Shown here one piece after another: positions 3,330 through 15,814 of a stretch of DNA of 30,120 bases (the stretch's first letter is position 1; every line of letters begins with the position of its first letter). Position numbers and translations under genes: made by a program. The stretch spans positions 1 through 30,120 of the IMG/VR virus record IMGVR_UViG_3300017724_000047, one strand, 5' to 3'. Source of the DNA: a virus. Below the pieces are notes generated by a model. That model was not told the origin of the DNA, made no database searches, and was given only the letters and a program-made list of their open reading frames with translations.

Positions 3330-3860
3330 TTAAGTTCCTACTACAACAACAGTATTAGTAGTATCTCCAATAATTGTAGAGTCTACAAAAAATGCTGGTG
3401 CTTTTTCAGTTCCAGTAAAAGTTATATTATAGCCATTTAAATCTCCCATAGCTGCTCCAGTAGCTGTATTCACAGCACATTCACATCCGTTTTCAATTCC
3501 AGCTAAAAAGTAATTCCCATTGTAATCTTGTACGATTACTTGAGGTCTACCATAACTTAATAATTTTAATTCTTTACGAGTTTCAAGGTCTTGTTTCTTT
3601 AAAACTATCGTTCCAGTTTGTGTCCAGAATGAAGTTCCATTTTCCCTTGAGTTCTCGTTTGTTTGTTCGAAAGAGTTAGCACCTTTTAAATCGTATTTGT
3701 AAAAAGTAAGTGGAGATGCAAAAGCAGTTATTTCATCATTAGTACCAAATGTAGCAGTTCCTAATAAACCACTGGTATAATTTGAAATATAGATTGCAAT
3801 TATTCCCCCAACCGAGTCTTTACAAGGCTCTAATCTTCCAGCTCCAATATCACAAGACAT
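3330..3860 (-). CDS. Probable major tail (tube) protein
   Basis: 176 residues beginning MSCDIGAGRLEPCKDSVGG. The internal features FYKYDLKGANSFEQ, SRENGTSFWTQT, LLSYGRPQVIVQDYNGNYFLAG and YNITFTGTEKAPAFF are hallmarks of a conserved structural protein in Bacteroidota siphophages that I associate with the major tail tube. It sits directly downstream of the major capsid gene and is bracketed by a hairpin upstream and a strong terminator downstream, consistent with a separately controlled, abundant product. A head decoration protein is the main alternative. Cysteines at 3 and 13 and a CEC at about 127 are notable. Confidence 0.6.
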   Translation of the reverse strand: MSCDIGAGRLEPCKDSVGGIIAIYISNYTSGLLGTATFGTNDEITAFASPLTFYKYDLKGANSFEQTNENSRENGTSFWTQTGTIVLKKQDLETRKELKLLSYGRPQVIVQDYNGNYFLAGIENGCECAVNTATGAAMGDLNGYNITFTGTEKAPAFFVDSTIIGDTTNTVVVVGT

Positions 3861-6339: not shown

Positions 6340-8247
6340 TTATCCAAGTGATGCTCCTTGTATTATATTGTTTTGTAAGCTCTGTGCAGATGTAACATCT
6401 TGACTTACAACAAATGCTTGTACTGGTGCTTGTTGTCCTAACGCTGCTGCTAACTGGTTTGTACCACTTGTACCTAATATATCAAACGATGGTGTTTGTG
6501 CTGTTGTTTGACTTCCAGCAGTTGTAGATACATCTGGAATATTTACAGTCGAACCACTTGCACCTAATTTAGAAGTTGCTTGTTTAGAAGATTTCATTGC
6601 TGATTTAATTGTTTTAATAATTCCAGCAGCTTGAACAGCATACCCTAAAATTAAAGGTATGTTAGCTGGGAAAGGTAATGAAGAAGCAGTTTTAGCTGCA
6701 CCACTTGAAATATCCACCCCAGCTTCTGCACCTTTCATAACTGTTTTAGTTGCAGATTGTTTTGCTGAAAATAACGTAGATTTCATTTCCATTATCATCT
6801 CTTTAGCTAACATAAGTTGTTTAGCTATCAAAATTGCTTTACCAAGTTTAGATTCTGCTCCAGCTATCGCTATTGCATCAGCAAAGGATTTGTCTTGAAT
6901 TGCTTTTTTATCTTCTGCTATCTTTTTTGCTGCTGCTTCTTCATCTGCTATTTTTTTATCTCTTCTTGCTTTGTCTGTTGCATCAAAAGTAGCTTGTTTT
7001 TCTGCAATCGCAGCATCTCTTGCTATGTCAAGTTCATCGACAGCTAAATCATTTAATATAGCTTCTTCTCTTAAAGATGCATAATGTTCTCTTAATTTTT
7101 CTAATTCTAAAGCTCTTTTATCAACTTCTTCAACAGCTTGTGCATCTCTTAAAGTTTTTTTGAAATTTGCCATTGAGGTTTCGGCTGCTTTTGTTTCGGC
7201 TTCTATTTGCTTTGATATAGTATTAACTTCTCTTTGTACTTGTCGTGCTGTGTTAGCTCTGGCAGCTTGTTGTCGATTTACTGCTGCAATTGCATCGGCT
7301 TCTTTTGTTAGATTTTCTTTATTACTTCTACTAAAAGTATTTTCAGCAATTTGTGCATCTCTTCTTAATTCTAAAAATTCTGTTTCTTTGTCTAATAAAC
7401 TATCTTCTAATACTTGGGCATCTAATAATGCTTGTTTTCTTTCTGCAGCACTAAACTGGTCTTCTTGTCTTGACTTTAACCTTAATTGCGCTATTTCACT
7501 TTCTAATTTACTTCTATCTATTATTAATTGTCTTTCAATTTTATCAGCTTTAGCTCTCATATCAGCTACCTCTGCTGCAGCTTTTCCTTCTTTTATTTGT
7601 TCTTCAGTAAAAGTTTTAATAGATGTAGCTGCTTTAGTTACAGAATCAGTAACACTATCCATTCCTAAAGTTACTTTACCTACTGCATCTGCAGCGATTT
7701 TACCAGCTTTTGAAAAATTACCTTTAAATAATTGTGTAATTGCTTTTCCTAAACTTGGAACTAAATTTATTAAACCTTCAAATCTCGTATTTAAATTATC
7801 TTTTATTAAATCTCCAAAAGATTTTAAAGATTCAACTGGGTTTTCAAATACAGAAATTATTTTTTCTCCTAAATCAGCAAACAAGTCTACTAAATTACCA
7901 GTAAGCGCACCAATAACTCCCATTATTTTAGCGAATTTGTTTTGTCCTTCTTCTGAACCTGTGAAAGCAGCTCCTAAAGCTGTAATTCCTAAAACCAAAG
8001 CACCAATACCAGTAGATATTATAGCTAATCTCATTGATTTAAATCCAGCTGTTACTGATTTTAAACCACCTTTTAAACCTTTAAATTTACTTACAAGTCC
8101 TCCTGAAGCACTGTCAAGACTACCTAAAGCTCCTTCAAGATTTCCAGTATTTTTTGAAGTGTCCTTTATAGAATCATCTAACTTATCTACGCTTTTAACT
8201 GCTTTAGAAGTATTAGCTTCAAAATTTAAGATATACGTTTCTGCCAT
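6340..8247 (-). CDS. Tail tape measure protein
   Basis: 635 residues. The N-terminus is a predicted coiled coil, then a hydrophobic segment (LAIISTGIGALVLGITALGAAF, about residues 73-94), then a long region (about 210-470) rich in Ala, Glu, Lys, Arg and Gln with heptad character, and a second hydrophobic stretch near residue 525-560. This architecture defines tape measure proteins, which set tail length and travel into the host envelope during injection. It is short for a tape measure, predicting a short tail if the usual length relation holds. It begins inside the end of the 50-residue gene upstream. The antisense strand contains a long spurious open frame. Confidence 0.85.
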   Translation of the reverse strand: MAETYILNFEANTSKAVKSVDKLDDSIKDTSKNTGNLEGALGSLDSASGGLVSKFKGLKGGLKSVTAGFKSMRLAIISTGIGALVLGITALGAAFTGSEEGQNKFAKIMGVIGALTGNLVDLFADLGEKIISVFENPVESLKSFGDLIKDNLNTRFEGLINLVPSLGKAITQLFKGNFSKAGKIAADAVGKVTLGMDSVTDSVTKAATSIKTFTEEQIKEGKAAAEVADMRAKADKIERQLIIDRSKLESEIAQLRLKSRQEDQFSAAERKQALLDAQVLEDSLLDKETEFLELRRDAQIAENTFSRSNKENLTKEADAIAAVNRQQAARANTARQVQREVNTISKQIEAETKAAETSMANFKKTLRDAQAVEEVDKRALELEKLREHYASLREEAILNDLAVDELDIARDAAIAEKQATFDATDKARRDKKIADEEAAAKKIAEDKKAIQDKSFADAIAIAGAESKLGKAILIAKQLMLAKEMIMEMKSTLFSAKQSATKTVMKGAEAGVDISSGAAKTASSLPFPANIPLILGYAVQAAGIIKTIKSAMKSSKQATSKLGASGSTVNIPDVSTTAGSQTTAQTPSFDILGTSGTNQLAAALGQQAPVQAFVVSQDVTSAQSLQNNIIQGASLG

Positions 8248-10447: not shown

Positions 10448-11590
10448 TTATCTTATGTTGTTTATAGTGTCAAACGCAAAGCTTACATCTATTGTGTAGT
10501 TTATTAAACTATCTGTAAGACTTGTTTTGTAGTCTATATTGTTGTTTTCAATATTAACAGATAATGTTTTATTTTTGTATTCTATCCATACTTTATCACT
10601 TAAGAATAGTTGCTTAAATACTTCATTGTTACTTTCTGGATAATAACCACTATTTAACGTAAGCCTTTGGTTTGCATTTTTAGTAAGTAGTCTTACTTGT
10701 GCATTGTATGTTGCGTATGTTCCGTTGTTTAGTATGTTGGATTTGTATTTGTCTTTTTCAGTAGTCATTGCAAGTTTAGAATTCTTAAAGAAGTATATAT
10801 CTTGATATGCTCCAAACTTATTTATAAAGGTTAGCTTGTAAGGTGTGTATTTACATTCTATTATGTTTTCTATGTTTAAAACAGTAACACCCTCTATTGC
10901 GTTTATTATAACCTCATCAACAGGATAAATAGTTTCATTTCTTAAAAACTCTTGTATGCAAGGATTGTCTTCAAACGTACCTCCTGATGCTTCTACTCTT
11001 TCTCTATAATTATCTACATCAGCAGAAGCTGTACTTACGTATGCAATCTGGTCTTGTATTTTTAATCCCGAAGTAGGAGTCCAAACATATATCTGCGCTC
11101 CTTTGTTTAAAAATGCAACAGAGGTTGTGTTTTCATTATCTACAGGTATTCTTAAAGCATCATCATCTGATTTAAGTATTGTTGTGTTTGATTGTAAGTA
11201 ACCTTGTAGTAGTTGAGGGTTTGCACCTTCTTCAAAATATCCATATCCGTAAAATGCTCTTTCCCCTAAAACAGTTGTAACAACATCGCTACTACCTGTT
11301 ATAGTTTCTGTAGTTCTATAATCTACATACACTGTAGTATAATCATCTGCTGCTAAAAGTGAGTTAGGGTATGTTCCACTAAATGCTGCTGGTATGTAAT
11401 CTTTTATTAACTCTGCTATCTCAAAGTTTATGTGTTCGTTTATAGCTGTAGAAGTTAAAGTGTATTGTGGGCTTCCTTGCCAAGTAGTCTCAACACCTCC
11501 TATGTATATTCTTAACTCAAGTGTAGCACTTGTTAGGTTAGTAGTATTTAAGTTTATGAAGTAAGGACTTCTTACGTTTATTTTACTCAT
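10448..11590 (-). CDS. Conserved tail structural protein (380 aa)
   Basis: 380 residues, beta-rich. It starts with INVRSPYFINLN and has TLELRIYIGG, then INFEIAELIKDYIPAAF, TTVYVDYRTT and YKLTFINKFGAYQDIYFF. This combination of an N-terminal beta domain and a YG..D..FF.. segment is typical of a tail protein that lies next to the larger tail protein in Bacteroidota phages. It could be a tail-tip or distal-tail-like component. The start overlaps the upstream gp10-like gene by 8 bases, and the stop directly abuts the next gene. The exact role is not known. Confidence 0.6.
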   Translation of the reverse strand: MSKINVRSPYFINLNTTNLTSATLELRIYIGGVETTWQGSPQYTLTSTAINEHINFEIAELIKDYIPAAFSGTYPNSLLAADDYTTVYVDYRTTETITGSSDVVTTVLGERAFYGYGYFEEGANPQLLQGYLQSNTTILKSDDDALRIPVDNENTTSVAFLNKGAQIYVWTPTSGLKIQDQIAYVSTASADVDNYRERVEASGGTFEDNPCIQEFLRNETIYPVDEVIINAIEGVTVLNIENIIECKYTPYKLTFINKFGAYQDIYFFKNSKLAMTTEKDKYKSNILNNGTYATYNAQVRLLTKNANQRLTLNSGYYPESNNEVFKQLFLSDKVWIEYKNKTLSVNIENNNIDYKTSLTDSLINYTIDVSFAFDTINNIR

Positions 11591-12116
11591 TGTTGTTGTC
11601 TTTTAATATGTCTATTATGTCTTGTGCAAATGCTTTAGTTAGTAGTTGAGGATATCTATCAAAGGCTGCTAAAAATGGTTTAGTAAAAAACATACTTGGT
11701 TTTATACCTTGTGCAAATATGCTTCGTTGTAATATAAACCCTATAGTTCTATAATTACCCTTTTTAAACTTCCCTTCTTTATCTCTTAATCTTATGTTTC
11801 TTTTTTTTGCCCAATCAGCTAATGGTTGCATTGGTGGTCTTTTAGATTTAAAACTATAAGGACTATTGCCACCTTTTTGTTTTCCGTTTTTTACTAAACT
11901 TGGGTCTGCACCTTTAACACCTTTATCTAAAAATGTTCCGTACTCATCCATTATAAAAGCTAAATCAAAGTTGCCATTCTTTTCATCTAACTTGTAATGA
12001 ATACTATTATATAAGTCTTTAGTTACATTGTGTTTTTGTTTAGTAAGATTAGACCTTGATTGTTGTACTACATACTTACCAAAAGCTTGTAACTCTGTTT
12101 GTAAGTTCTTTAGCAT
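11583..12116 (-). CDS. HK97 gp10-like tail-completion / connector protein
   Basis: 177 residues, basic. The N-terminal helix with LYNSIHYKLDE, the DEYGTFLDKGVKG motif and the region RPPMQPLADWAKKRNIRL fit the HK97 gp10-like or minor tail family that joins head and tail. A C-terminal helix with MFFTKPFLAAF is also typical. It follows the 154-residue tail protein gene with a 7-base overlap. A role in head-tail joining or tail completion is the best inference. Confidence 0.65.
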   Translation of the reverse strand: MLKNLQTELQAFGKYVVQQSRSNLTKQKHNVTKDLYNSIHYKLDEKNGNFDLAFIMDEYGTFLDKGVKGADPSLVKNGKQKGGNSPYSFKSKRPPMQPLADWAKKRNIRLRDKEGKFKKGNYRTIGFILQRSIFAQGIKPSMFFTKPFLAAFDRYPQLLTKAFAQDIIDILKDNNNE

Positions 12117-12574
12117 ATTGTCATATCGTTAGGTATTAGTACATTAAACGTAACAGTCCATCCAGCTAACTTATTTTCAAATCTATCTACAAAAGGCTCT
12201 AATGAAGGGTCTCCATCTAATTGGTATTTATCTACATATAAGTCTCCTCTTAATAGTAACTCAAGTAATCTATTAGCTACAGCAAGTTGTGTGTTAAATA
12301 CATCTTGTTCATTGTTGTTACCTCTAAACTCTTGTGGTATTCCATCTGCAAAGTTTTTGCTCTCATCTACTATATCCATACATAATAACGATAAACTAAA
12401 GTTCCATACGTTACCTTGCATAGTTGCACTATTAATCATAAAGTGTGATAACGGAAATATAGTCTGTTTGTTTAAGTCTACATCGTATATGTCGCCATAG
12501 GTTACTGTATTGACAAAGTCATCTAATTGTAGTGTTTGTCTTATCTTTTCAGATAGGTTATAAAATCCTTGCAT
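12110..12574 (-). CDS. Tail terminator / completion-like protein (154 aa)
   Basis: 154 residues with VTYGDIYDVDLNKQTIFPLSH, WNFSLSLLCMDIVDESKN, NNNEQDVFNTQLAVANRLLE and FENKLAGWTVTFNVLIPND, all strong signatures of a conserved Bacteroidota phage protein that I would place with tail-terminator or neck proteins. The start codon follows the stop of the -1 frame of the chaperone gene by a single base, so it is probably translated by reinitiation after the GT product. Family recognition is good; the functional name is inferred. Confidence 0.65.
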   Translation of the reverse strand: MQGFYNLSEKIRQTLQLDDFVNTVTYGDIYDVDLNKQTIFPLSHFMINSATMQGNVWNFSLSLLCMDIVDESKNFADGIPQEFRGNNNEQDVFNTQLAVANRLLELLLRGDLYVDKYQLDGDPSLEPFVDRFENKLAGWTVTFNVLIPNDMTIC

Positions 12575-12575
12575 A

Positions 12576-12830
12576 TTATTGTGATTTACGTTTTATCATT
12601 CTTGTTTCTAATTCTGCTTTTTCTTTTTCAAATGCCAAGTACATTAAACACTGGTGTAATGGAAGCTTTGCAACTTCTTTAAATCTTGTAATGTCTCCTT
12701 TAGCAAGTGTATATAGTTCTGAATAGCTTCCCCATTTTCTGGAGAAATTTGACCTTTGGTCTGTTCCTTCGTTACTTCCTTCTCCAAATAGTTCGGTATA
12801 TAGTTCAGCAATTCGTTGGTTAAATTGTAA
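12576..12830 (-). CDS. T domain of tail assembly chaperone, reached by -1 frameshift (GT)
   Basis: This 84-residue frame has no start codon in its first part. It lies in the -1 frame relative to the chaperone gene and becomes open at the run of nine T at 12829-12837. If ribosomes slip by -1 after Phe156-Phe157 of the upstream product, a 241-residue fusion results. The T part reads LQFNQRIAELYTEL, later RKWGSYSELYTLAKGDITRF and LPLHQCLMYLAFEKEKAELE; the W-G-x-Y ... LA.GDI..F..V..LP pattern is what I know from T domains of Bacteroidota siphophage chaperones. It ends 1 base before the next gene, closing a gap that the unshifted product leaves open. Confidence 0.75.
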   Translation of the reverse strand, partial: LQFNQRIAELYTELFGEGSNEGTDQRSNFSRKWGSYSELYTLAKGDITRFKEVAKLPLHQCLMYLAFEKEKAELETRMIKRKSQ

Positions 12831-13300
12831 AAAAAAACCATAGCACCTAATACAACACTTAATGGCATCTCTTTCATTACCTCGCTGTACTTGTGGCTTC
12901 CTTCGTATTCTTCTATTAGATACTTATGTCCTTGCTTTTGTTTGAGTGGTCTGAATAATACAGCCATTGCCTTATGCATATTACCCCATTCATTTATATA
13001 GCTTGTAACGTCTTTATTTTCTCCATAGGTAATTTCATCAAGGTTTGGTATAAAACCATAAGAAACACCATTTAAATTAAACGTAGGGATGTATTTGTGT
13101 TCTTGGTCAAATAGTTTATTGATGTGATTGATTAAGTAATCTACATCTTTGTCTTTAATCTTACCAAGCTCTTTTGTGTTTATGTTGAGGATGCGTTTAA
13201 GTAAATCATCATTACTTGGATTCTCTATAAGTAAGAAGTCTTGATAGTCTTTTAACTTGACTTCCTTAAGTGTACTTGGTATAGAAACTTCTATTTGCAT
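12644..13300 (-). CDS. Tail assembly chaperone, G product
   Basis: The ATG at 13300 gives 218 residues; the longer frame uses a TTG next to a terminator. The sequence starts MQIEVSIPSTLKEVKLKDYQ and contains YIPTFNLNGVSYGFIPNLDEITYGE, MHKAMAVLFRPLKQKQG, and GSHKYSEVMKEMPLSVVLGAMVFF cut across several blocks. This matches the G component of the tail chaperone in Bacteroidota siphophages. G and GT together coat the tape measure before tail tube polymerisation. The codons for Val-Phe-Phe at 155-157 form the slippery site. The C-terminal 61 residues are unique to the unshifted product. A terminator lies 20 bases before the start. Confidence 0.8.
   Translation of the reverse strand: MQIEVSIPSTLKEVKLKDYQDFLLIENPSNDDLLKRILNINTKELGKIKDKDVDYLINHINKLFDQEHKYIPTFNLNGVSYGFIPNLDEITYGENKDVTSYINEWGNMHKAMAVLFRPLKQKQGHKYLIEEYEGSHKYSEVMKEMPLSVVLGAMVFFYNLTNELLNYIPNYLEKEVTKEQTKGQISPENGEAIQNYIHLLKETLQDLKKLQSFHYTSV
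12827..12839 (-). other. Slippery sequence for programmed -1 frameshift
   Basis: The minus strand reads GGTTTTTTTTTAC, with codons GTT TTT TTT TAC in the G frame. Both Phe tRNAs can re-pair perfectly after a -1 slip (X XXY YYZ with all T), entering the T frame at TTA CAA. A weak CAATT/AATTG hairpin starts just downstream, so the length of the T run may be the main stimulator. Confidence 0.7.
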
Positions 13301-13319: not shown

Positions 13320-13350
13320 AAAAAAAGGATTACTTTGTATAAAGCAACCC
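13320..13350 (-). terminator. Intrinsic terminator before tail chaperone gene
   Basis: On the minus strand GGGTTGCTTT pairs with AAAGTAATCC (10 bp, two G-U) around an ATAC loop, followed by TTTTTTT. It follows the 71-residue gene and lies only 20 bases before the chaperone ATG, with no evident promoter between. Tail expression therefore needs readthrough, antitermination or an unrecognised promoter. Confidence 0.85.
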
Positions 13351-14650: not shown

Positions 14651-15814
14651 TTAGTAAATGTAATATTGACCCTTATTAGGATTCTCTAATTGTGAAGTGA
14701 TAGCATACCTCATCGCATCTATACAATGGTTAAAAGCATCTATTGGTTTGTTAAGTGTTTCTCCTTCTTTGTTCTTTAACCAAATGTAGTTCTGTAGTTC
14801 TTTAATTAAGTTATGACTTCTATTAGTTATATAGATTTCATTTTGATTGATGAGGTTGATACCATACACTATTGAGTCTTTACCTTTCTTTACTGGCATT
14901 ATTAAATGACCATAGCTTGATAACTCTGCAATACTTTTAGGTTCTGCTGAATCTGCATATATGATTTCTTTTGCTTCGTGTGTTTTAAGTAAGTTGCTTA
15001 TCTGACTATTTAGTAATCCTTTTTGATAGATGACCTCATCAAAGATATATGAGTTGTTGTATTTGTAAAGTGCTATTAAAGTAGAAGGGTCATTAGTATA
15101 ACCAAAGTCCATTCCGTAACAAAGTAGTCTTGCTTCGTTTGGTAAGTCTATAGGCTTCCAGTCTTTTATACAAGCACCTTCTAAACTTCCTATCTCTCCA
15201 AGTCCATATACATTCCACCAGTTATTCCAATAGGTAGATGTCTTTGCTTTGTCTTTAGCTTTCTCTATGTCTTTTATAATTGTGTCTGGTAATGCTTCAT
15301 TGTCTAAATACGTTAGCTTTATAAAGTCTGCATCTTCTTTGCCTTGCAGTTCTGTATGCGCCCAGAATGATGAGGTTGGGTTAAACTCAATCCATATATC
15401 TCCAGATGTTCTTATTGCTAATTGGTTGTATGCTTCGTAAGGTATGTTGTTAGCTTCGTTTACATATAGGGTGTGTCTTCTTGCTCCTCTTAACTTGTCT
15501 GCTGATTCAACACTAAAGAACTCTATGTAACTTCCGTTTGCAAACTTATACTTAAGCATTGACTTATTATATTGCATATCATTATAACGATTAGTCATCA
15601 TCATAATCTTTAGGAAGTCTTTTAAAGCACCTCTACGCAAATGTGGTATAGACTCACTAACTACGCTTATTTCTACGTTAGGAGTTCTTATAGCTCTATC
15701 TATGAGGATTGGTAGTATGCCGAATGTCTTACCAGCAGATGTTCCACCTTGAACTATTTTTTTACGTTTCTTTAGTTTAAGAAGTTTTTTAATTGCAGTT
15801 GTTACTACAAACAT
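14651..15814 (-). CDS. terL: Terminase large subunit
   Basis: 387 residues. The ATPase domain has Walker A GGTSAGKT (residues 23-30) and Walker B TLYVNE (115-120). The RNase H-like nuclease domain has acidic residues in YGMDFGYTNDPS (Asp236), IIYADSAEP (Asp288) and FNHCIDAMRYAI (Asp366). The enzyme pumps DNA into proheads through the portal and cuts the concatemer. Its start overlaps the end of the small subunit gene (TAATG). At 387 residues it is at the short end of the family. Unlike in many phages, the portal gene is not next to it but about 12 kb further along the transcript direction. Confidence 0.95.
   Translation of the reverse strand: MFVVTTAIKKLLKLKKRKKIVQGGTSAGKTFGILPILIDRAIRTPNVEISVVSESIPHLRRGALKDFLKIMMMTNRYNDMQYNKSMLKYKFANGSYIEFFSVESADKLRGARRHTLYVNEANNIPYEAYNQLAIRTSGDIWIEFNPTSSFWAHTELQGKEDADFIKLTYLDNEALPDTIIKDIEKAKDKAKTSTYWNNWWNVYGLGEIGSLEGACIKDWKPIDLPNEARLLCYGMDFGYTNDPSTLIALYKYNNSYIFDEVIYQKGLLNSQISNLLKTHEAKEIIYADSAEPKSIAELSSYGHLIMPVKKGKDSIVYGINLINQNEIYITNRSHNLIKELQNYIWLKNKEGETLNKPIDAFNHCIDAMRYAITSQLENPNKGQYYIY

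Follow-up and report, generated by a model that had tools for sequence, protein, structure and literature searches.

How does one phage gene, interrupted by nothing more than a run of thymines, come to specify two proteins, and is it the ribosome or RNA polymerase that switches between them? This question is raised by a locus in the IMG/VR virus record IMGVR_UViG_3300017724_000047, of which we analyzed a stretch of 30,120 nucleotides (positions 1 to 30,120; hereinafter the window). The gene in question, G (12644..13300, minus strand), runs from an ATG at 13300, which is a better start than the TTG at 13321 also proposed by the ORF caller, to a stop codon ending at 12644, and codes for a zero-frame product of 218 aa. 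Near its codon 155 the minus strand of the window reads ATG GTT TTT TTT TAC; the nine successive Ts (12829..12837, minus strand), zero frame GTT TTT TTT TAC, are read as TTT TTT TTA in the -1 frame. The latter frame continues into a second domain, T (12576..12836, minus strand), with 84 residues after the Phe-Phe pair and a TAA stop at 12578-12576, one base ahead of the ATG (12574) of the next gene (12110..12574, minus strand; 154 aa, phrog_30964). The G stop lies 69 bases ahead of the same ATG, and both frames are open over about 185 nt (12644..12828, minus strand). The predicted fusion, GT, would comprise 157 residues of G and 84 of T (241 aa), such that G residues 1-157 are common to both products and residues 158-218 overlap T. 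An initial annotation made from the sequence had described the nine Ts, the 84-codon -1 frame ending one base before the next gene, the 69-base gap, the approximately 185 doubly open bases and a slip after Phe157 giving a 241-residue product; we recovered each of these in the window, the T run exactly to the base, and a recount of the fusion gives the same length.

Scans of IMG/VR with single sequences and with alignments retrieved approximately 550 loci. In approximately 360 distinct relatives G and the T domain are both retained, still offset by -1, with the identity in G falling to about 26%. These relatives include IMG/VR contigs, the Nonlabens phage P12024L, a Galbibacter isolate and flavobacterial MAGs. 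One early scan used a pattern spanning the slip site; the patterns of later scans were placed elsewhere, with the same outcome. The cultured relatives are the Nonlabens phages P12024L and P12024S (26-30% identical), whose genes 40/41 and 38/39, respectively (JQ823123, JQ823122), are direct homologs of the pair in the window: in P12024L the T9 occupies the same register, the -1 T domain is shared, and TerL lies just upstream. In contrast to the reading presented here, the P12024L and P12024S records treat these as two separate hypothetical proteins, with the frame change unrecognized. A first genome scan with the T alignment returned no match; a scan of bacterial genomes yielded seven loci, including one in Galbibacter pacificus CAA-3 and others in MAGs named Flavobacterium, Flavobacteriaceae, Winogradskyella, and Psychroflexus. 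As the cellular loci fall in Galbibacter and flavobacterial MAGs, the hosts are mainly flavobacteria. A large group of phages infecting flavobacteria of marine and fresh waters thus appears to make one protein, probably a helper in tail assembly, in two versions. One cellular contig (L553, JAHZJZ010000222.1) is binned as Epsilonproteobacteria, with the rest of the family being flavobacterial, and is likely misbinned.

Several lines of evidence indicate that both frames are in use. The doubly open stretch, about 185-190 nt long, is kept in all 194 distinct relatives of the set used for substitution analysis. When the codons of the T protein were synonymously resampled, the zero frame stayed open in only 2.7% of the trials, and when the G tail was resampled in turn, 0.5% of the trials left the -1 frame open. 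Across the 194 distinct sequences, changes at codon positions 1-3 numbered 12.5, 8.0, and 30.8 in G-only codons and 9.4, 6.9, and 22.1 in T-only codons, as against 14.2, 8.5, and 16.9 (T positions 1-3) in the overlap, where changes at the wobble position are suppressed in both frames. These counts together with the resampling reject the idea that the frames are doubly open by chance. The constraint is strong in both frames over the approximately 16 codons right after the slip and is dominated by T in the remainder. We also considered the independent translation of T and rejected it: the T frame of the window has no ATG, GTG, or TTG ahead of T codon 64, and in 327 of 341 relatives there is no ATG before codon 40. 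Since both frames are constrained and T lacks a start codon, G and GT are both selected, with T translated only as a fusion to G. From these comparisons it is close to certain that one gene gives rise to two products, a short one and a longer one formed by switching to the -1 frame close to where the first gene ends.

The T run itself shows a distinctive pattern of conservation. Among IMG/VR and phage records, each of the 356 distinct sequences extending to the site has at least nine Ts (T9 in 341, T10 in 14, and T12 in one, with none shorter); five others, whose contigs end before the slip site, were left out. The seven cellular loci all have 9 or 10 Ts. Mapped onto a tree of 336 sequences, the two bases flanking the run each changed about 30 times, the register changed five times and the length eight times, and yet the sum never fell below nine. 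In the commonest register (2+6+1) the run is made up of GTT, CTT, or ATT, then TTT TTT, then a codon beginning with T; in register 1+6+2 (L307, L310, L392) it is AGT or GAT, TTT TTT, TTG, with Ser or Asp in place of the preceding Val, Leu, or Ile; and in registers 0+9+0 and 0+9+1 it is TTT TTT TTT between ATG or ATA and CTG or TAC, as in the ATG TTT TTT TTT CTG of L553 (0+9+0). The residue following the Phe pair likewise varies between Tyr, Trp, Phe, Ser, Cys, and Leu with the T base being retained. The initial annotation had called the all-T site unusual, but missed that the length of the run is the conserved property. Judged from these substitution patterns, both frames and a run of at least nine Ts are under selection. 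The initial annotation had named as a potential refutation homologs in which the -1 frame is interrupted or the T run has disappeared; no such homolog occurs among the approximately 360 distinct sequences.

The last base of the heptamer, the third base of the second TTT, is particularly informative. A change from T to C here is silent twice over (TTT to TTC, both Phe, in the zero frame, and TTA to CTA, both Leu, in the -1 frame), but all 347 sequences have T at this position and none has C. By way of comparison, TTC accounts for 309 of 1585 upstream Phe codons (19.5%), between 12 and 29 changes were counted at each of five conserved Phe codons, the first base of T-frame Leu codons changed 6-32 times, and a doubly silent Leu site within the overlap changed at least 30 times. 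The Ts flanking the heptamer are not a clean proof of slippage, because both frames need hydrophobic residues there; since these residues partly explain the flanking Ts, the argument for slippage is carried by the doubly silent position and by the shifts in register. In nearly all sequences the third frame has a stop two codons past the slip, which would limit the waste from U8 or U11 transcripts; we count this as consistent only, and a role as a selected safeguard was rejected as the stop follows from the conserved residues of the two used frames. RNA structure acting as a stimulator from downstream or upstream was similarly rejected: the mean folding z is -0.14 for 5-55 nt and -0.33 for 5-85 nt downstream, and no consensus pairing or covariation was found there, in agreement with the little visible stimulatory structure originally reported.

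We also surveyed runs in a non-redundant set of 609 other genes from these phages, the chaperone gene being left out, with expectations derived from codon shuffling. T runs of seven or more are depleted (39 observed versus 98 expected), to an equal degree in each codon phase (observed to expected ratios 0.34, 0.36, and 0.43), whereas A runs are strongly depleted only at nine or more (8 versus 43 expected). The independence from codon phase speaks against a ribosomal cause of this avoidance, and a cause acting purely on the DNA is disfavored by the contrast between T and A on the coding strand. The bias of T over A agrees with E. coli data, where RNA polymerase begins to slip at seven Ts but needs more As (PMC6260861). 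The avoidance of long runs is, however, also compatible with indel mutation as the alternative cause, and a shortage of U7 and A7 in all phases in E. coli has been given the same two explanations (PMC4066793).

Which mechanism, then, produces GT? We propose that most transcripts would carry U9 and be translated as G (218 aa), whereas RNA polymerase would slip on the nine-T run in a fraction of them, adding one U; ordinary translation of this U10 mRNA would then yield GT, the 157 residues of G followed by the 84 of T. Slippage by bacterial polymerases on runs of nine As or Ts is established, for example, in Thermus dnaX and Shigella mxiE (PMC1088944), and two sequence features expected of such transcriptional realignment are observed, namely a conserved, uninterrupted run of at least 8-9 at the frame junction and the phase-independent avoidance of such runs in other genes, for which indel mutation is the alternative cause. 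In the ribosomal alternative postulated by the initial annotation, two tRNA-Phe would slip by -1 on T_TTT_TTT, and a fraction of ribosomes would enter T. This heptamer is indeed present in the right phase with a shift of -1 in every relative, the described G/GT pairs use ribosomal frameshifting (PMC5009743), and U_UUU_UUU is efficient in E. coli (PMC4066793). However, seven Ts would suffice for the ribosome, yet at least nine are retained in every register, so that the constraint extends beyond the heptamer. Nor is the last base of the heptamer free: in E. coli U_UUU_UUY is classed as efficient and the tetramer U_UUC is better than U_UUU, and as U_UUU_UUC is efficient there the ribosome would accept a C at the heptamer end, silent as it is in both frames (PMC4066793). 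A downstream stimulatory structure, a common though not obligatory feature, is also absent. Hence, at least nine Ts in several registers, the invariant last T, and the lack of a stimulatory structure favor slippage by RNA polymerase from U9 to U10, which we infer to be probably the main mechanism; ribosomal frameshifting as the principal source of GT appears rather unlikely, though a serious contender. Thus, of the original claim of a programmed -1 ribosomal shift, the programmed -1 change that yields G and GT is upheld, as is selection on both frames and on the T run, and the ribosomal mechanism is supported less well.

Some counterpoints weigh on this preference. The threshold of E. coli RNA polymerase is T7, so a minimum of nine is not fully explained by polymerase slippage; T_TTT_TTT is itself a valid ribosomal heptamer, and the G/GT pairs of the literature are ribosomal (PMC5009743). 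Flavobacterial tRNA-Phe may have a preference for UUU over UUC, and the need for hydrophobic residues in each frame can partly explain why the preceding codon has T as its second base and the following one has T as its first. A run of U9 is slippery to polymerase and ribosome alike, and both could jointly set the share of GT; we consider this improbable, given that a ribosomal contribution is unneeded to explain the conservation pattern. Finally, homopolymers are in general error-prone and mutable, and the offset might not be programmed at all, reflecting instead a sequencing or assembly error or DNA-level phase variation between T9 and T10. We reject this as exceedingly improbable: the same offset recurs in approximately 360 distinct, concordant sequences from many assemblies, an isolate contig (L555) at 413x coverage and a cultured phage agree with it, no genome was found with G and T fused in a single frame, and both frames are constrained.

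In lambda, the ratio of two chaperones decides tail assembly. The architecture seen here, in the structural module of a phage, makes it very likely by analogy that G and GT are such a tail assembly chaperone pair. The phage is tailed, as terminase, portal, protease, capsid-like, and tube-like genes are present along with a tape measure protein. The latter (6340..8247, minus strand; 635 aa) was identified by tblastn and composition, with matches to the annotated tape measure proteins of Cellulophaga phage phi46:1 and Croceibacter phage P2559Y, and, should the chaperone reading hold, would be the protein with which G is expected to pair. It lies four genes downstream of T, and the terminase large subunit, TerL (14651..15814, minus strand), lies upstream of G, giving the order TerL, small ORFs, G/GT, four genes, and tape measure; the order of TerL followed by G/GT is the same in P12024L. 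G and T show no sequence match to Pfam, PDB, or annotated chaperones. An AF2 model of G (pLDDT 84.6) places the slip within a long helix and that of T is a low-confidence helical domain; in fold comparisons no solved structure matched either, the matches being to uncharacterized phage proteins only. Nor does the gene fall in the interval from the major tail protein gene to the tape measure gene: the major-tail-protein (tube)-like gene, recognized by eye, is at 3330-3860, beyond a capsid-protein-like gene likewise recognized by eye. The earlier tail-chaperone assignment is a reasonable one on the architecture of G plus GT. In phage phi46:1, gp16 (L549) occupies the same place after TerL with the same later order up to the tape measure gene, but is a single ORF without a T run or frame change, and may show how the task is accomplished in the absence of such a change.

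The closest known counterparts are gpG/gpGT of lambda and their frameshifted equivalents in other long-tailed phages (PMC5009743, which cites Xu, Hendrix and Duda, 2004, 2013, 2014). As in those, a short and a longer protein share an N-terminal part, T is in the -1 frame with the frames overlapping, and the genes belong to the structural module of tailed phages that also encode a tape measure protein. Unlike them, the present pair has no detectable sequence or fold match, follows TerL and precedes the tape measure gene by four genes, has a long zero-frame tail of 61 residues past the slip, and uses a slip site of at least nine Ts with an inflexible last base. In its conserved homopolymer of at least nine and lack of RNA structure it is reminiscent of the transcriptional realignment systems of Shigella mxiE, Thermus dnaX, IS elements, and Citrobacter tssM1; in mxiE one U added to a U run gives the longer product, and in tssM1 both products are needed (PMC1088944, PMC4256274). 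Those systems are backed by experiments on mRNA or products, whereas the present one is proposed from sequence, and none of them is a phage tail chaperone.

Taken as a whole, the proposal that polymerase slippage to U10 yields GT, and that the pair acts like the lambda chaperones, with G coating the tape measure protein, T recruiting the tail tube protein and their ratio being of importance, is reasonably likely. On balance, we also favor the view that, in this large clade of flavobacterial phages, the tail-chaperone pair arises by polymerase slippage on a run of at least nine Ts, with the G:GT ratio set at transcription. This would be the first phage tail system of its kind, one in which polymerase slippage has naturally replaced ribosomal frameshifting for the same task. 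If so, RNA polymerase and not the ribosome would set the chaperone ratio across a widespread set of aquatic phages, in a parallel to dnaX, where bacteria differ in using polymerase slippage or ribosomal frameshifting to the same result. It would also provide annotations for the PHROG families phrog_32199 (G) and phrog_38404 (T), and imply that finders relying only on heptamers and structures misassign the mechanism at such sites.

A few other runs and loci deserve mention. The window has an A8 on the coding strand (11801-11808) within the gene at 11583-12116, just under the strongly avoided A length. Among the very few such runs outside the chaperone gene, T9 or T10 occurs in other called ORFs of L113, L046, and L049. 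An A10 in the zero frame of P2559Y_0014, the gene directly before that for the tape measure protein in Croceibacter phage P2559Y (L550, 6030-6039), is probably not programmed, as the other frames soon close. Two T9 chaperone genes (L146 and L163) lie near the two ends of IMG/VR contig 3300034167_000034 (35,351 bp), which either has two chaperones in one genome or was assembled by joining two genomes.
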